From contig NZ_CP110848.1 in NCBI RefSeq assembly GCF_026240635.1, positions 3,243,741 through 3,307,740 of the forward strand: a stretch of 64,000 nt of DNA. Reading direction: 5' to 3'. Source of the stretch: Trichothermofontia sichuanensis B231 (GTDB lineage: Bacteria; Cyanobacteriota; Cyanobacteriia; B231). Shown here one piece after another: positions 12,350-18,875 of this stretch. Made by a program: the position numbers and the translations under genes. Every line of letters starts with the position of its first letter. Position 1 is the first letter of the stretch. Under the pieces are notes generated by a model that saw only the letters and a list, made by a program, of their open reading frames with translations, made no database searches and had not been told where the DNA came from.

Positions 12350-13801
12350 TTACTCAAGCAGTTCTCGCAGTTTAGCAGCTAATGCCTTGGCCGAAGGGAA
12401 GCGTTTGTCAGGCTGGGGATGGGTGACCTGCTGGATAACCTGAGCGATCGCGGGCGATACCCCCGCCACCGCGCCTGTGGTAAACTGCCAACCCGTTTCT
12501 TCATATTCATAAAGGGGTAGGGGCTTACTCCCCGTGAGGAGGTAGGTCAGGGTGTATCCTAGCGAATAGAGATCGGATTGGATGACGGCCTTCCCTGCCC
12601 GCTGCTCCGGCGCCATGAAGCCCTTCGGGGTGAACCAAGTATCACGGGCGGGCACCAGATTCTGAATAATACCAAAGTCGACGAGGGCAATCTCATAACC
12701 CTGTTTGGGGACCGCCCGTCGAATCAAGTTTTTGGGTTTCACATCGCCATGTAAAATCGGGGGCGAATGGCTATGCATATAGTCCAAAATATCGCACACT
12801 TGAATCATCCAAGCAATCGCCTGCGATGGAGGCACCGAACCATACTGTTGGATCCACTCTGCCAAGTTGAGACCATAGATCATCTCATTCACCAGGTAGG
12901 GCTGGCCAGCCACCGGAAATAGATCCACAAAGCGCGGTAAACCGGGATGGCGCAATTGGCGTCGTCGCTTGGCCTCCTTCTCAAACCCTGCCATCACTTC
13001 CGGATGCCGTAGCCAGTAGTTAGAATTCAGGGTCTTAATCACATAACTTTGACCATTGCGCCACCCTTGATAGGTAATCCCCACATTATCCTGGCTGATG
13101 ATTCGGATGATCTGATAATTACCCACGGTTTGCAGCACCCGGAGCGGTTGACCACAGTCTAAACAAAACAACCGATCAGGAGTAGCTCGCTCGTGGGTAC
13201 ACAGGGGTGGGCTAGTGATCCGACTGCTTGCCCCCCTCCGCTGTGCCACTACTGGCGGGGGCCTGAGCGTTTGGGTGAAACCGCCTTCTGCCCCCTCAGC
13301 CAGATTGAGTTGCAATGGGGTGGGTGGTGCGTGGGCCAAGGGATCGGGCGGCATCTCGGTCGGAGGCAGACGGGTAGGACCAGGCCGGGTTTGATCGACC
13401 TCGTCATCACTACTTCCAACGCCGATCACAGGCGTTGTCTCCCGCAGGCTAGCAGGCATAGCGGCGGTACTGGCCTTCGTTAAACGTTCCCCTGGTGGGG
13501 GCGTATCGAGGTGGATTTGGATGTGGGGACCTGAACGGGCCAGACGAATCACCATGCCATCCGTGACCGGCACTTGAGAAACCCGTTGACCATCAATATA
13601 GGTCCCATTACTGCCCAGGTTTATCAGTTCCCACTGTCGGTTCGTGTAGCGTAGCTCGACATGGTTACGCGAAACAACGGCACTGTACAGGACCACCTGA
13701 TTCTCGGTCGATCGCCCAATCCGAATGACCGACTCCTGATCAAACGACCAGACCTGAATCGGGGTTGACTGGAGCGGATGTAGCAGTTTCAGGGTAATCA
13801 C
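12350..13801 (-). CDS. FHA domain–Ser/Thr kinase fusion with an altered catalytic loop
   Basis: 483 residues. The N-terminal FHA domain (~1-100; RIGRSTENQVVLYSAVVSRNHVE and NLGSNGTYIDGQRV) binds phosphothreonine. A Pro-rich linker with a small Cys pair (CTHERAT...CLDCGQ, around 200-215) leads to a Ser/Thr kinase-like domain (~230-480). The ATP Lys (VIKTL), helix-C Glu (FEKEAKRR), DFG (VDFGIIQN) and APE (MAPEQ) are present. The HRD motif, however, reads HGD (His351-Gly352-Asp353, HGDVKPKN), and the Gly-rich loop is degenerate (ISQDNVGITYQG). It is therefore a non-RD kinase or a weak or pseudo kinase. It starts with GTG at 13801. Confidence 0.92.
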   Translation of the reverse strand: MITLKLLHPLQSTPIQVWSFDQESVIRIGRSTENQVVLYSAVVSRNHVELRYTNRQWELINLGSNGTYIDGQRVSQVPVTDGMVIRLARSGPHIQIHLDTPPPGERLTKASTAAMPASLRETTPVIGVGSSDDEVDQTRPGPTRLPPTEMPPDPLAHAPPTPLQLNLAEGAEGGFTQTLRPPPVVAQRRGASSRITSPPLCTHERATPDRLFCLDCGQPLRVLQTVGNYQIIRIISQDNVGITYQGWRNGQSYVIKTLNSNYWLRHPEVMAGFEKEAKRRRQLRHPGLPRFVDLFPVAGQPYLVNEMIYGLNLAEWIQQYGSVPPSQAIAWMIQVCDILDYMHSHSPPILHGDVKPKNLIRRAVPKQGYEIALVDFGIIQNLVPARDTWFTPKGFMAPEQRAGKAVIQSDLYSLGYTLTYLLTGSKPLPLYEYEETGWQFTTGAVAGVSPAIAQVIQQVTHPQPDKRFPSAKALAAKLRELLE

Positions 13802-14049
13802 GCTACGAGATGCATACTTAAGGGACGCATAGTAATGATCAGAACCTGAAGAAGGGTAGCATCCTGCCCACCATTTGCGCTGGCAGGCGATCGCCCAACT
13901 TAGGAGCTAAGCCGTTGGTCCTTCGTTCCACCCACCGACCTTGTCCTTGGGTAAAAGGATAAAGACCAGCCTAGCCACTAGTGTATCAATTTCTTTGAGA
14001 CCCTACCCGTTTCAGACCGATCGCCCAGCCGTAAAAGTCACGAGAGAAG

Positions 14050-14829
14050 TTACGAGAGTTGGAACAGGAAGGTGACCAAATCACCTTTGCCGAGTGCAAT
14101 CCGATCACCCGGACGCAGCCGATGCCGATTCCCAGGGGCAAGCGGCAGATTATTGACATAGGTGCCATTGGCACTGCCCACATCTTCCAGGTAATAGTCA
14201 TCCCCTTCTACGCGAATATCTGCGTGGACTCGCGACACAATATCGGAATTTGGGAATCCAGACACATCCACATCCGGCGGAACCCGATCGTTGGGCTTAC
14301 CTAGATGGATCACCGTTAATCCTTGCGGTAATTCCAGGGTAGTGTTGGTTTGGAGGTGGAGCAACCGAGCAGTTTGCTGTTGCAGTTGGGTGCGTTGTCC
14401 TGCGATCGGCGGTGCGGGGATGGCTGGGATCGGTGTTGAGGAAGCCGACGTCTCGGGTAACGTTGCGAAGGAGGCCCCCTGCTCGCCCGGTGCAGCCATC
14501 CCAGCGGCAGTAGCAACAGGCTCGGATAATTCTGCCAAGTCGGGCAGGGGTGGAATGGCAAGGGGATCGGGGGGAACCAATGGGTCTAGGCTACCCCAAT
14601 TGTCAGCCTCTGGTTCTGCGGTTGTGGAGCCTTCCAGCATTACTTCCGTTTCAGGCAAAGAAGCTGCACTTTTGAGATTAAAGCCACACTGGCCACAGAA
14701 GTGGGCATCTGCCTGGACCGTTGCCCCACAACTGGGGCATGTCAACATGGTCGGCAGGGGAGTATAACAGGACTCACACTGAACCGCCCCATCGGGATTT
14801 TGATGACTACAGTTCGAGCAAATAATCAT
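14050..14829 (-). CDS. Zinc-ribbon / FHA domain protein
   Basis: 259 residues. Two N-terminal zinc ribbons (CSNCSHQNPDGAVQCESC, residues 4-21; CPSCGATVQADAHFCGQC, 31-48) lead into a long Pro/Ala/Glu-rich linker and a C-terminal FHA domain (~160-259; IHLGKPNDRVPPDVDVSGFP, SDIVSRVHADIRV, VGSANGTYVNNLPL) with the phosphothreonine-binding Arg-Ser-His-Asn pattern in slightly changed form. It is probably an adaptor for phosphorylated partners. GGAGTT lies just before the ATG. It sits 248 bases from the FHA-kinase on the same strand, so the two are plausible partners. Confidence 0.9.
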   Translation of the reverse strand: MIICSNCSHQNPDGAVQCESCYTPLPTMLTCPSCGATVQADAHFCGQCGFNLKSAASLPETEVMLEGSTTAEPEADNWGSLDPLVPPDPLAIPPLPDLAELSEPVATAAGMAAPGEQGASFATLPETSASSTPIPAIPAPPIAGQRTQLQQQTARLLHLQTNTTLELPQGLTVIHLGKPNDRVPPDVDVSGFPNSDIVSRVHADIRVEGDDYYLEDVGSANGTYVNNLPLAPGNRHRLRPGDRIALGKGDLVTFLFQLS

Positions 14830-15486: not shown

Positions 15487-16956
15487 CTAGGGGTGCCCAA
15501 TCGGCAACTGGACACGAAAGGTGGTGCCTTCTCCTGGCTGACTTTTGACAGTGATCACCCCATGAGAGCGTTGAACCAAGTGTTGCACGATCGTTAACCC
15601 TAAGCCGGCCCCTTCGACTTCAGGTTGAGGCTGTGTTTGGCGTAGGCGATAAAACGGCTCAAAGATATGGCGGTGCTCATCGGGGGGAATGCCAATACCC
15701 GTATCGCGCACTTCCAGCACGACGCTATCTCCTTGTTGGCTGGCCTGTACCCAGACTTGGCCACCCGGCGGCGTATATTTAAGGCTATTGTGCAGGAGGT
15801 GGATCACAATTTGCCGGATCCAACTGGGCAGTCCGGTAATCGCAGGCAGGGTATCGGGTACCGTATAAAATAGGCCAATCCCTCGTTCTTGGGCGAGGGG
15901 CTGGTAGGTACTGACGACACCGGGCACCAGATCACTCAGGTGCAGGGATTGGGGTTCCTGGTTGGCTTCCTGATCCAGTCGCAGCAGATCTAGCACACTG
16001 TTGATGAGAGCGGTCTGATGATCGCAGGCGGTCCGGAGCAGGTCCATGTAGCGTTGCCGCTGGGCTACCTTCAAATTGGGAGCATCTAAGAGGGTCAGGG
16101 CGGTTTTCATATTGGTCAGGGGGGTGCGCAGTTCCTGACCCACCATGTATAGCAGTTCATCCTTGAGTCGGATTTCTGTTTGTGCACTCTCATGCTGGCG
16201 TTGGAGTAATTCAACCGTTTCGGCCTGTTTGCGGTTACTGACCAATTGTCGCCAGATATCTTCCTGACGTTGCACTTGGCGTGTTAGCAGCAGGCTGATT
16301 AGGTTCGGTGGGGTGACACTGGGTTGGTGTTGGGCGAAAAAAGCTTCCCAGGTGCGATGGGGCGGGGGCGGCGGCGTTTGTATGGGGCTACAGGCGATCG
16401 CCTGTTGAATACCCACAAGTACCTCCTGAATGACGATCGGATCGCAGGTGATAAACCCCAGCAGGGGATGACGCCGCTGACTGGCCAAGGTGGCCTCTGG
16501 CGGGAGGGTGGCTAACAGGTGCGTTTCGGTTAAATCTTCTCCAGGTAAACGGACTGATCGGGGTTGGTGAGCAAGGGCAAGGACCGAGATCTTGGCCCCG
16601 ATCGCCAATAGAAAATATTCCCGCTTCAGGTGGCTTTCGGGGGCGAGGATCAGCTTGACCAACGTTGGATCTGGCTCCATCAGGATTGGGGTAGCAGGGA
16701 CCTCAGTTGTAAAGGAACACAGGGTAGGTGATCCGCCCAGACAGGTCCGATAGCGATCGAGATCCTCTTGCCACAGCGGGGTGGCGGGAAGCTTCACCCA
16801 CAGGGTAGTGACGAGTTCCTGGTCTATCAACACGTCAATCAGGGAAGCCATGACCGACTTCAAGGTCGCTGGGCTAAGTTGCAGCGGGGCTGGAGGCGAT
16901 GGGCAATGGCAGGCCAGTTCATACAGGGAAATATCCTGGCAGGGGAAGACGGTCAT
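15487..16956 (-). CDS. Histidine-kinase-like protein lacking the phospho-acceptor His
   Basis: 489 residues. The N-terminal ~190 residues resemble a divergent DICT sensory domain (REYFLLAIGAKISVLALAHQ around 110-130). A coiled helix (QVQRQEDIWRQLVSNRKQAE) leads to a HisKA-like dimer helix and an intact HATPase_c domain (N-box HLLHNSLKYTP, G1 DTGIGIPPDE, G2 GAGLGLTIVQHL). The H-box reads MVGQELRTPLTNM: the phospho-accepting His is Gln274 (codon CAG at 16137-16135). It therefore cannot autophosphorylate at the usual site and may be an allosteric partner. No response regulator is adjacent. The kinase fold is certain; the DICT assignment is tentative. Confidence 0.88.
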   Translation of the reverse strand: MTVFPCQDISLYELACHCPSPPAPLQLSPATLKSVMASLIDVLIDQELVTTLWVKLPATPLWQEDLDRYRTCLGGSPTLCSFTTEVPATPILMEPDPTLVKLILAPESHLKREYFLLAIGAKISVLALAHQPRSVRLPGEDLTETHLLATLPPEATLASQRRHPLLGFITCDPIVIQEVLVGIQQAIACSPIQTPPPPPHRTWEAFFAQHQPSVTPPNLISLLLTRQVQRQEDIWRQLVSNRKQAETVELLQRQHESAQTEIRLKDELLYMVGQELRTPLTNMKTALTLLDAPNLKVAQRQRYMDLLRTACDHQTALINSVLDLLRLDQEANQEPQSLHLSDLVPGVVSTYQPLAQERGIGLFYTVPDTLPAITGLPSWIRQIVIHLLHNSLKYTPPGGQVWVQASQQGDSVVLEVRDTGIGIPPDEHRHIFEPFYRLRQTQPQPEVEGAGLGLTIVQHLVQRSHGVITVKSQPGEGTTFRVQLPIGHP

Positions 16957-17318
16957 AAATTTTTTATTCGGAATTTAGGTGGAGAATCAGTCAAGCCAAT
17001 CCCCCATAGACGATATATGCAAAGATACGCGCGCTAGCAGGTGAAGGAGGGGCACGCTAGATTGAGCGGATGTCCCTGATGCGAGACGCTATCTAGCCTT
17101 AACCCCTAGTCTGACACTCACGATGAGTATTTGTCGATTCTATGCCAGCCATCCTAATTCAGGCTCCTAATTGGGTGACTGCTATGGAATCGTACCGGCC
17201 CTCCTAGGATAGGACAGAAATAATAGTAGAGGGACTAGGTTGAATAAGCCGACCTGCAAAGGGGTATCGAGTATGATTTTTCTTGTAGTTTGTGTCGGGA
17301 TCTGGACGGTTCTCCCCT
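16957..17318. promoter_or_regulatory. Divergent intergenic region between two signalling genes
   Basis: This 362-base gap separates the minus-strand kinase-like gene from the plus-strand Ser/Thr kinase and must hold both promoters. I see no clear operator or terminator. Confidence 0.35.
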
Positions 17319-18875
17319 ATGACTGATCCGCGATCGCCCGGTGCTGGGGTGGTGATTGCTAGCCGTTATCGTATTCTGTCCCTGCTGGGACAGGGGGGGT
17401 TTGGCTGTTCCTATCTGGCGGAGGATCAGAATCGCTTTGGCGAGCGGTGTGTGCTCAAGGAATTTGCGCCCCAATTGCAGGGAACTCAGGCGTTGCAAAA
17501 GGCTAAGGCCCTGTTTCAACGGGAGGCAGGAATTCTCTACCGGTTGCAACATCCCCAGATTCCAGCCTTCCGCGAGTTACTCCAGACCGAGATTCAAGGG
17601 CAAGAACGGCTGTTTCTGGTGCAGCAATATATTCCAGGGCAAACTTATCTGGAGCAGCTTGAGCAAGGACTGCGGTGGACAGAGGTGGATGCGGTGCGGT
17701 TTCTGCGCTACCTACTTCCCGTTTTAGATTATCTGCATAGCCAGGGAATTCTGCATCGGGATATTGCCCCGGACAATCTCATCTGCGAAGCGACCCACCA
17801 ATGGCCTGTCTTGATTGATTTTGGGGCCGTTAAACAACTGGCCATCAGCGTGATTCAGCAGTTTAGCCCCCAGGGACGGGCCGTGGCAACGGTGGTTGCC
17901 AAGCCAGGATATACGCCGCCGGAGCAACAGTATGGTCAACCCGTCGCAGCGAGTGATCTCTACGCCTTGGGGGTGACGACGTTGGTGCTGTTAACTGGGC
18001 GCAGTCCAGCAGAGTTGCGCGATCGCGGCAGTGGCGCCTGGAATTGGCAATCGTTGATCACTGTGTCCCCAGCCTTGACTAGGGTGCTGGAAACTCTGCT
18101 GGCGGAACGGGTCTGCGATCGCTACCCGTCAGCGCAGGCGGTTCTGGCGGATCTGGAGCAATGGGCTGGGGGCGGCGGTTATGCCTATCCAGTTGCCGGT
18201 GGGCCGTCACCCTCGTTAACACCTGCCCAATTGCAGCCACAGTCTACCCGCCCATCTCTGTCGCAGTCCCTTTCGCAACTCCGCACACTTGCGGTTGCGC
18301 CGCGTCGTCCCGTTCCTCCCGCGTTGACCCTTCCCCCTCCGACCCGTGCCGCTGTTGCGCCGGCGGTTCCTAGCCAACCCCATTCTCATCTCCCTCGCTA
18401 CCGTTGGTTTGGGCGATTACTGGGACTACTGCTGCTACCCCTGAGGATGCTGTTCAAAGCGCTTCTGGCTCTAATGAACTGGAGCTTGCGGGGGCTATTT
18501 GCCTGCGTCGCCCAGATCCTGGGGACGGTGATCACCAAGCTCATTGTGGCGGCGATCGGGGTTGTTTTGTTGCTCAGTTTAGTGGGCGGTTCCGTGCCCC
18601 AGTGGTCCACCTGGCTGGGTCGGTTACCCGCGATTAATGGGGGCTGGCCCGCACGCTCGACCGCCGATGCCAACTGTCAGGAACGCATCCTTACCGATAT
18701 GCAAGCCAGGCAGATTCCGGCCAGTGAACGGAGTCGACTGTATGCGATCGTCGATGCCCAGTTTTATGCGGCCTATCCTGATCTGGAGGGGCGGCAATTA
18801 ACCAACACTCCAGCCGATGCCCCATTACGCCGTGCCTGGTGTGAGTTCGCCAAGGCCGCGATCGCAGCTTATTAG
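17319..18875 (+). CDS. Membrane-associated Ser/Thr protein kinase
   Basis: 518 residues. An intact kinase domain spans ~20-285: Gly loop LLGQGGFGCSYLA, Lys in CVLKEFAPQ, helix-C Glu in FQREAGIL, catalytic loop HRDIAPDN, DFG in LIDFGAVKQ and APE-like TPPEQQYG. A Pro/Ser-rich linker (~285-370) is followed by a strongly hydrophobic region with two or three membrane segments (LLGLLLLPLRMLFKALLALM; VITKLIVAAIGVVLLLSLVG) and a small C-terminal domain with one Cys pair. The HRDIAPDN variant is common in cyanobacterial Spk kinases. ATG 17319 is preferred over the in-frame GTG 17292. With the FHA proteins nearby, it may be their phosphorylating kinase. Confidence 0.92.
   Translation: MTDPRSPGAGVVIASRYRILSLLGQGGFGCSYLAEDQNRFGERCVLKEFAPQLQGTQALQKAKALFQREAGILYRLQHPQIPAFRELLQTEIQGQERLFLVQQYIPGQTYLEQLEQGLRWTEVDAVRFLRYLLPVLDYLHSQGILHRDIAPDNLICEATHQWPVLIDFGAVKQLAISVIQQFSPQGRAVATVVAKPGYTPPEQQYGQPVAASDLYALGVTTLVLLTGRSPAELRDRGSGAWNWQSLITVSPALTRVLETLLAERVCDRYPSAQAVLADLEQWAGGGGYAYPVAGGPSPSLTPAQLQPQSTRPSLSQSLSQLRTLAVAPRRPVPPALTLPPPTRAAVAPAVPSQPHSHLPRYRWFGRLLGLLLLPLRMLFKALLALMNWSLRGLFACVAQILGTVITKLIVAAIGVVLLLSLVGGSVPQWSTWLGRLPAINGGWPARSTADANCQERILTDMQARQIPASERSRLYAIVDAQFYAAYPDLEGRQLTNTPADAPLRRAWCEFAKAAIAAY

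Follow-up and report, generated by a model that had tools for sequence, protein, structure and literature searches.

Histidine kinases that have lost their phospho-accepting histidine are known singly. DivL of Caulobacter is described with a tyrosine in place of the HisKA histidine (PMC4211667), and in the chloroplast sensor kinase CSK the histidine of the H-box has reportedly been exchanged for glutamate in higher plants and moss and for tyrosine in green algae (PMC2677595). Another arrangement is that of Hik36-Hik43 of Synechocystis, presented as a split CheA-type kinase with its phospho-histidine part and its ATPase part on two proteins (PMC7656254). The DICT domain of cyanobacteria has been treated, in the study cited, in DICT-HD-GYP proteins (PMC7063779), and a word search of a 2026 review of cyanobacterial redox signalling (PMC13421787) returned neither DICT nor pseudokinase. 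Beside the single cases of DivL and CSK, the gene reported here, termed A, belongs to a whole cyanobacterial family that holds glutamine at the acceptor site under selection and together with its ATP pocket. No earlier description of this family was found in a full-text search made for the glutamine family, in literature that takes in only a minority of subscription papers.

The window, that is, the whole stretch of 64,000 nucleotides that was analysed, sits in the complete 4.44-Mb genome of Trichothermofontia sichuanensis B231, the sole member of its order among the genomes compared. Gene A occupies positions 15487-16956 on the minus strand as an open reading frame with an ATG start and a product of 489 aa. 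Three domains of this product exceed the Pfam cut-offs, all encoded on the minus strand: a DICT sensor domain at residues 9-131 (16564-16932; PF10069, E 5e-19), a HisKA dimerisation and phospho-acceptor domain at residues 265-330 (15967-16164; PF00512, E 8e-9) and a HATPase_c ATP-binding domain at residues 377-486 (15499-15828; PF02518, E 1e-30). The N-terminal DICT domain is an addition to the earlier note on this DNA, and no match to a GAF domain was listed for A in Pfam up to E 1.

Read on the minus strand, the codons around the acceptor site are ATG GTG GGT CAG GAA CTG CGC ACC CCC, and the CAG at 16135-16137 encodes Gln274 of MVGQELRTPL at the position of the HisKA phospho-acceptor histidine, just as the earlier note had it. 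The ATPase boxes, which the same note had called intact, are indeed all present: N390 in the N-box (15787-15789, minus strand), D418-T-G-I-G in G1, F432/F435 in the F-box and G451-L-G453 in G2 (15598-15606, minus strand). Judged as a HisKA sensor kinase, A has the domains and the ATP boxes and lacks the phospho-acceptor histidine; judged as a DivL-like pseudo-kinase, it has both a non-histidine site conserved across orthologues and a kept fold. The AlphaFold2 model of A has a mean pLDDT of 86.5 and a pTM of 0.59, with the DHp and CA parts mostly above 80 and lower values near the ATP lid (about residues 431-450). When the model was compared with the PDB by Foldseek, the best matches, over about 235 residues, were to HK853 of Thermotoga, with DivL (4q20) at rank 3, and the best matches by sequence were bacterial histidine kinases, DivL being the eleventh.

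DivL resembles A in its HisKA/HATPase_c fold, in a non-histidine site that is conserved among orthologues and in the retention of the other boxes, as far as it is characterized in PMC4211667. The two differ in the substituting residue (glutamine in A and tyrosine in DivL), in the sensor part (DICT against a PAS array) and in their hosts (cyanobacteria against alphaproteobacteria), and show 31-33% identity in the structural alignment. CSK, too, has a replaced H-box histidine that is kept so in whole lineages (PMC2677595), but it is portrayed as an orthologue of Hik2 with a putative GAF domain (PMC13421787), whereas A has DICT and glutamine.

The substitution is exceptional within the source genome. 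Of 41 sites matching a degenerate H-box pattern, three were dropped as having cysteine where threonine or serine is expected; among the remaining 38 H-box-like sites, 37 have histidine and gene A alone has glutamine. Two other DICT proteins are encoded by this genome besides A: a canonical DICT-CHASE6_C-GAF-HisKA-HATPase_c kinase with the histidine (733-aa frame, C1:946849-949047) and a DICT-HD-domain protein (C1:1103762-1105228).

A protein search with a limit of E<=1e-60 recovered relatives of A from 126 of 291 genomes of the cyanobacterial class, the source genome included. With 13 rows from a phylum-wide draw and five named cyanobacteria, a set of 144 rows was obtained, in which the five named rows may partly repeat genomes already counted. 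Four of the nine named loci were omitted from the set as inferred repeats of this kind, their contigs being equal in length to ones already included; all nine, which came from an alignment-based search and include Nostoc flagelliforme, Nostoc sp. T09, Nodosilinea sp. P-1105 and Myxacorys californica, have glutamine. As to whether glutamine is fixed among cyanobacterial orthologues, a check proposed in the earlier note, the acceptor site was glutamine in 128 of the 144 rows and histidine in only 2, the others having arginine (7), leucine (4) or glutamate (3). The corresponding counts for the 126 class genomes are 118 glutamine, 4 leucine, 2 glutamate, 1 arginine and 1 histidine. Glutamine relatives span about 20 family codes. 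Since arginine, leucine or glutamate takes the place of glutamine in some lineages, the chemistry of glutamine itself is not essential.

The family is well delimited. HisKA and HATPase_c were matched by Pfam in all 41 members of the A-family alignment and DICT in 40 of them, and beneath the family there is a sharp gap, the next matches (E 1e-38 to 1e-41) in 59 class genomes being five ordinary kinases, all with histidine. Another histidine serving as a substitute acceptor within A was considered and rejected, a histidine majority being confined to columns 130 and 389 (86/126 each). A short relative of 276 aa (L322:3512-4339, genome G013 of 2.5 Mb), which lies outside the 144-row set and has no DICT match, still has glutamine.

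Conservation of the ATP site is strict. The residues N390, D418, G420, G422, F432, F435, G451 and G453 are all kept in 141 of the 144 rows and in 127 of the 128 glutamine rows; N390 is asparagine in every row, and both G2 glycines are present in 142, the exceptions being two Asn/Asp rows. Damaged G1/G2 boxes were seen in L123, L124 and L126 of family code f12, two of which have glutamate at the acceptor site, and this sublineage of A seems to be losing ATP binding as well. A quick tree of the transmitter region, calculated with the acceptor column left out from the 144 rows and 27 histidine-bearing outgroup kinases, placed the A family on one side of a branch against the outgroup with an SH-aLRT of 99, subject to a long-branch warning between the two. 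The two histidine rows are nested singly among glutamine rows and are best read as rare reversions, histidine having been regained in L278 (G024) and L247 (G406) as lone tips within glutamine clades.

Parsimony on this tree gave at least 36 third-base changes at the glutamine codon, of which 2 cross the purine/pyrimidine line that separates glutamine from histidine, with about equal use of CAA (65) and CAG (63). At the neighbouring proline codon (Pro279), which tolerates any third base without a change of residue, that line is crossed by 35 of 57 third-base changes, and at Ala286 by 38 of 62. The scarcity of such changes at the glutamine codon compared with both of these indicates that glutamine is held by selection and that a return to histidine is disfavoured. 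A strain mutation, a sequencing error or pseudogene decay is therefore so improbable an explanation that it can be set aside: glutamine occurs in 128/144 relatives from about 20 family codes, the boxes are intact and the codon is under purifying selection. The earlier note's view of a specific change rather than decay is supported by the same kept ATP boxes and codon pattern. On these sequence comparisons, A is very probably an old, conserved cyanobacterial pseudo-histidine kinase that has retained its ATP site and lost its acceptor.

The candidate partner, B, was found as a recurrent convergent downstream neighbour of A with a HisKA match that includes the histidine; the representative had no Pfam HATPase_c match at 1e-3. 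In B, the heterodimer formation brought up in the earlier note gains a concrete candidate. The alignment of B retains HE[VI]RTPL[TA]TIR, and DxGxG and the G2 glycines are gone. Remnants of HATPase_c were matched in 13 of 16 members at a loose Pfam limit of 0.1, indicating a domain that is present but degenerate. Eighty B proteins were read, comprising the 30 best profile matches, 30 from genomes picked because no A was found and 20 more from genomes with A. The histidine is present in all 80 and GxGxG in none; the single DxGxG looks like a chance string in a variable loop, and the N-box column has asparagine in 15. With a profile of 16 B sequences (E<=1e-30), B was detected in 277 of the 291 class genomes, including the source genome (C1:231641-233536, profile match C1:231836-233467). 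It is possibly an overlooked conserved signalling protein and also occurs where the genome measures 1.6-1.8 Mb.

Profile alignment (probability 99.5) shows A and B to be homologous from residue 92 on, across 364 columns that take in the last portion of the sensor part. Their losses are exactly opposite: in A the ATP boxes are retained and the histidine is mostly missing, in B it is the histidine that remains and GxGxG that is gone. In Hik36-Hik43 the split divides a CheA gene and involves an HPt domain; both A and B are HisKA homologues of full length.

Of the 126 genomes with A, 112 have coordinates listed for both A and B, and 41 of the 112 carry the two on one contig. The genes are less than 5 kb apart in 17 of these 41 pairs and less than 30 kb apart in 26, with 10 family codes represented; convergent orientation is seen in 14 of the 17 nearest. 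On the 19 contigs longer than 4 Mb, five pairs lie within 5 kb against about 0.06 expected, these genomes being related and not independent. The excess of close pairs shows that an old linkage has been retained. Against a partnership, the two genes are separated by 3.0 Mb, by coordinate, in the source genome. Co-occurrence is hardly informative because B is nearly universal: it was found in 124 of the 126 genomes with A and in 153 of the 165 sampled ones that gave no match to A (Fisher p 0.03). A profile search for A in 30 genomes picked as lacking it gave only background kinases matching the transmitter part.

Autophosphorylation of A at the usual site would be barred by its glutamine, and its ATP pocket looks live; A most likely acts via a partner protein rather than by self-phosphorylation. 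It is proposed that the DICT domain and ATP occupancy would set the conformation of the DHp-CA module of A, which would then work on the homologous B with its phospho-histidine and dead ATP pocket, either by lending its ATPase domain to phosphorylate the histidine of B, as in a split kinase, or by steering B allosterically. Action on B is the preferred reading on three grounds: the opposite losses, a homology that extends to a common sensor region, and the lasting linkage of the genes. Judged from sequence and gene order, the case for B as a functional partner of A falls a little short of probable. Phosphorylation of the histidine of B by A is suggested tentatively and is open to doubt, and the two may, though this is considered somewhat unlikely, be halves of a split HisKA kinase, derived from a duplication whose copies lost opposite parts, with phosphorylation passing between them. 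If the split-kinase reading were true, B would serve nearly all cyanobacteria as a hub of histidine phosphotransfer, and A would be one of its kinases.

Other evidence speaks against action on B. The B proteins read from genomes without A are ATP-dead too, and as B is present where A is missing it cannot depend on A alone. Matched decay of B was not seen in the three genomes in which the ATP boxes of A are damaged, the usual B pattern being kept there. Taken together, these observations imply that A, if it serves B, is not its only kinase; B is possibly a histidine phosphotransferase, and we infer that it may be fed by several kinases in a phosphotransferase-like manner. With A and B, the role of ATP in pseudo-histidine kinases becomes directly testable with two proteins.

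There are two rival accounts of A. As a pseudo-kinase of the DivL type, independent of B, it would use its DHp surface to bind a response regulator, perhaps a phosphorylated one, or another kinase, and would signal by conformation with ATP as a structural or energy-sensing ligand. The rank of DivL (4q20) among the best structural and sequence matches to A speaks for this account, as do the finding that a HisKA protein without its histidine can serve as a sensor of a phosphorylated regulator (PMC4211667) and the retention of E275 in 139 of 144 rows. DivL, however, is reported to bind ATP weakly (PMC4211667), whereas the boxes of A are strictly kept. Moreover, of five DHp specificity positions, taken from the HK853 specificity mutants named in PDB titles, T285 and L289 are conserved in the A family and 282, 306 and 309 vary, so that one fixed response-regulator partner is not indicated. 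On balance this account also appears rather unlikely.

The other possibility is that A is a dedicated response-regulator phosphatase, its glutamine positioning a water molecule for attack on the aspartyl phosphate in the manner of Rap and CheZ, with the aid of the threonine at His+4. According to PMC3035606, Gln47 of RapH and Gln147 of CheZ reach into the active site of the receiver, and activity persists in RapH Q47E. A would share with Rap/CheZ a glutamine placed in that site; the folds differ, and the phosphatase role of A is putative. The phosphatase activity of HisKA proteins is stated to require threonine or asparagine at the position of CrdS N375 and not the acidic residue beside the histidine (PMC3510030). 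In the A family, T278 is threonine in 118 of 144 rows, and the acceptor site is glutamate in 3. The arginine (7) and leucine (4) rows fit this less well, the threonine at His+4 being mostly lost where arginine occurs (kept in 2/7), and it is not obvious why a protein acting solely as a phosphatase should require such strict conservation of its ATP pocket. The phosphatase account is regarded as distinctly unlikely, and action on B is retained as the preferred reading.

No response regulator adjoining A stood out among the recurrent neighbour clusters, which were judged by cluster. At 73 of the 144 A loci (e.g. L063 and L111), in many families, A has a murE-like gene upstream of it in the same orientation, and at 66 of those 73 it is preceded by a glutaredoxin-like gene; one representative of each was checked by Pfam. 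This glutaredoxin-like/murE/A order is absent from the locus in the window. Beside A, at 12350-14829 and 17292-18875 of the window, there are an FHA-Ser/Thr kinase, a zinc-ribbon FHA protein and a divergent Ser/Thr kinase.
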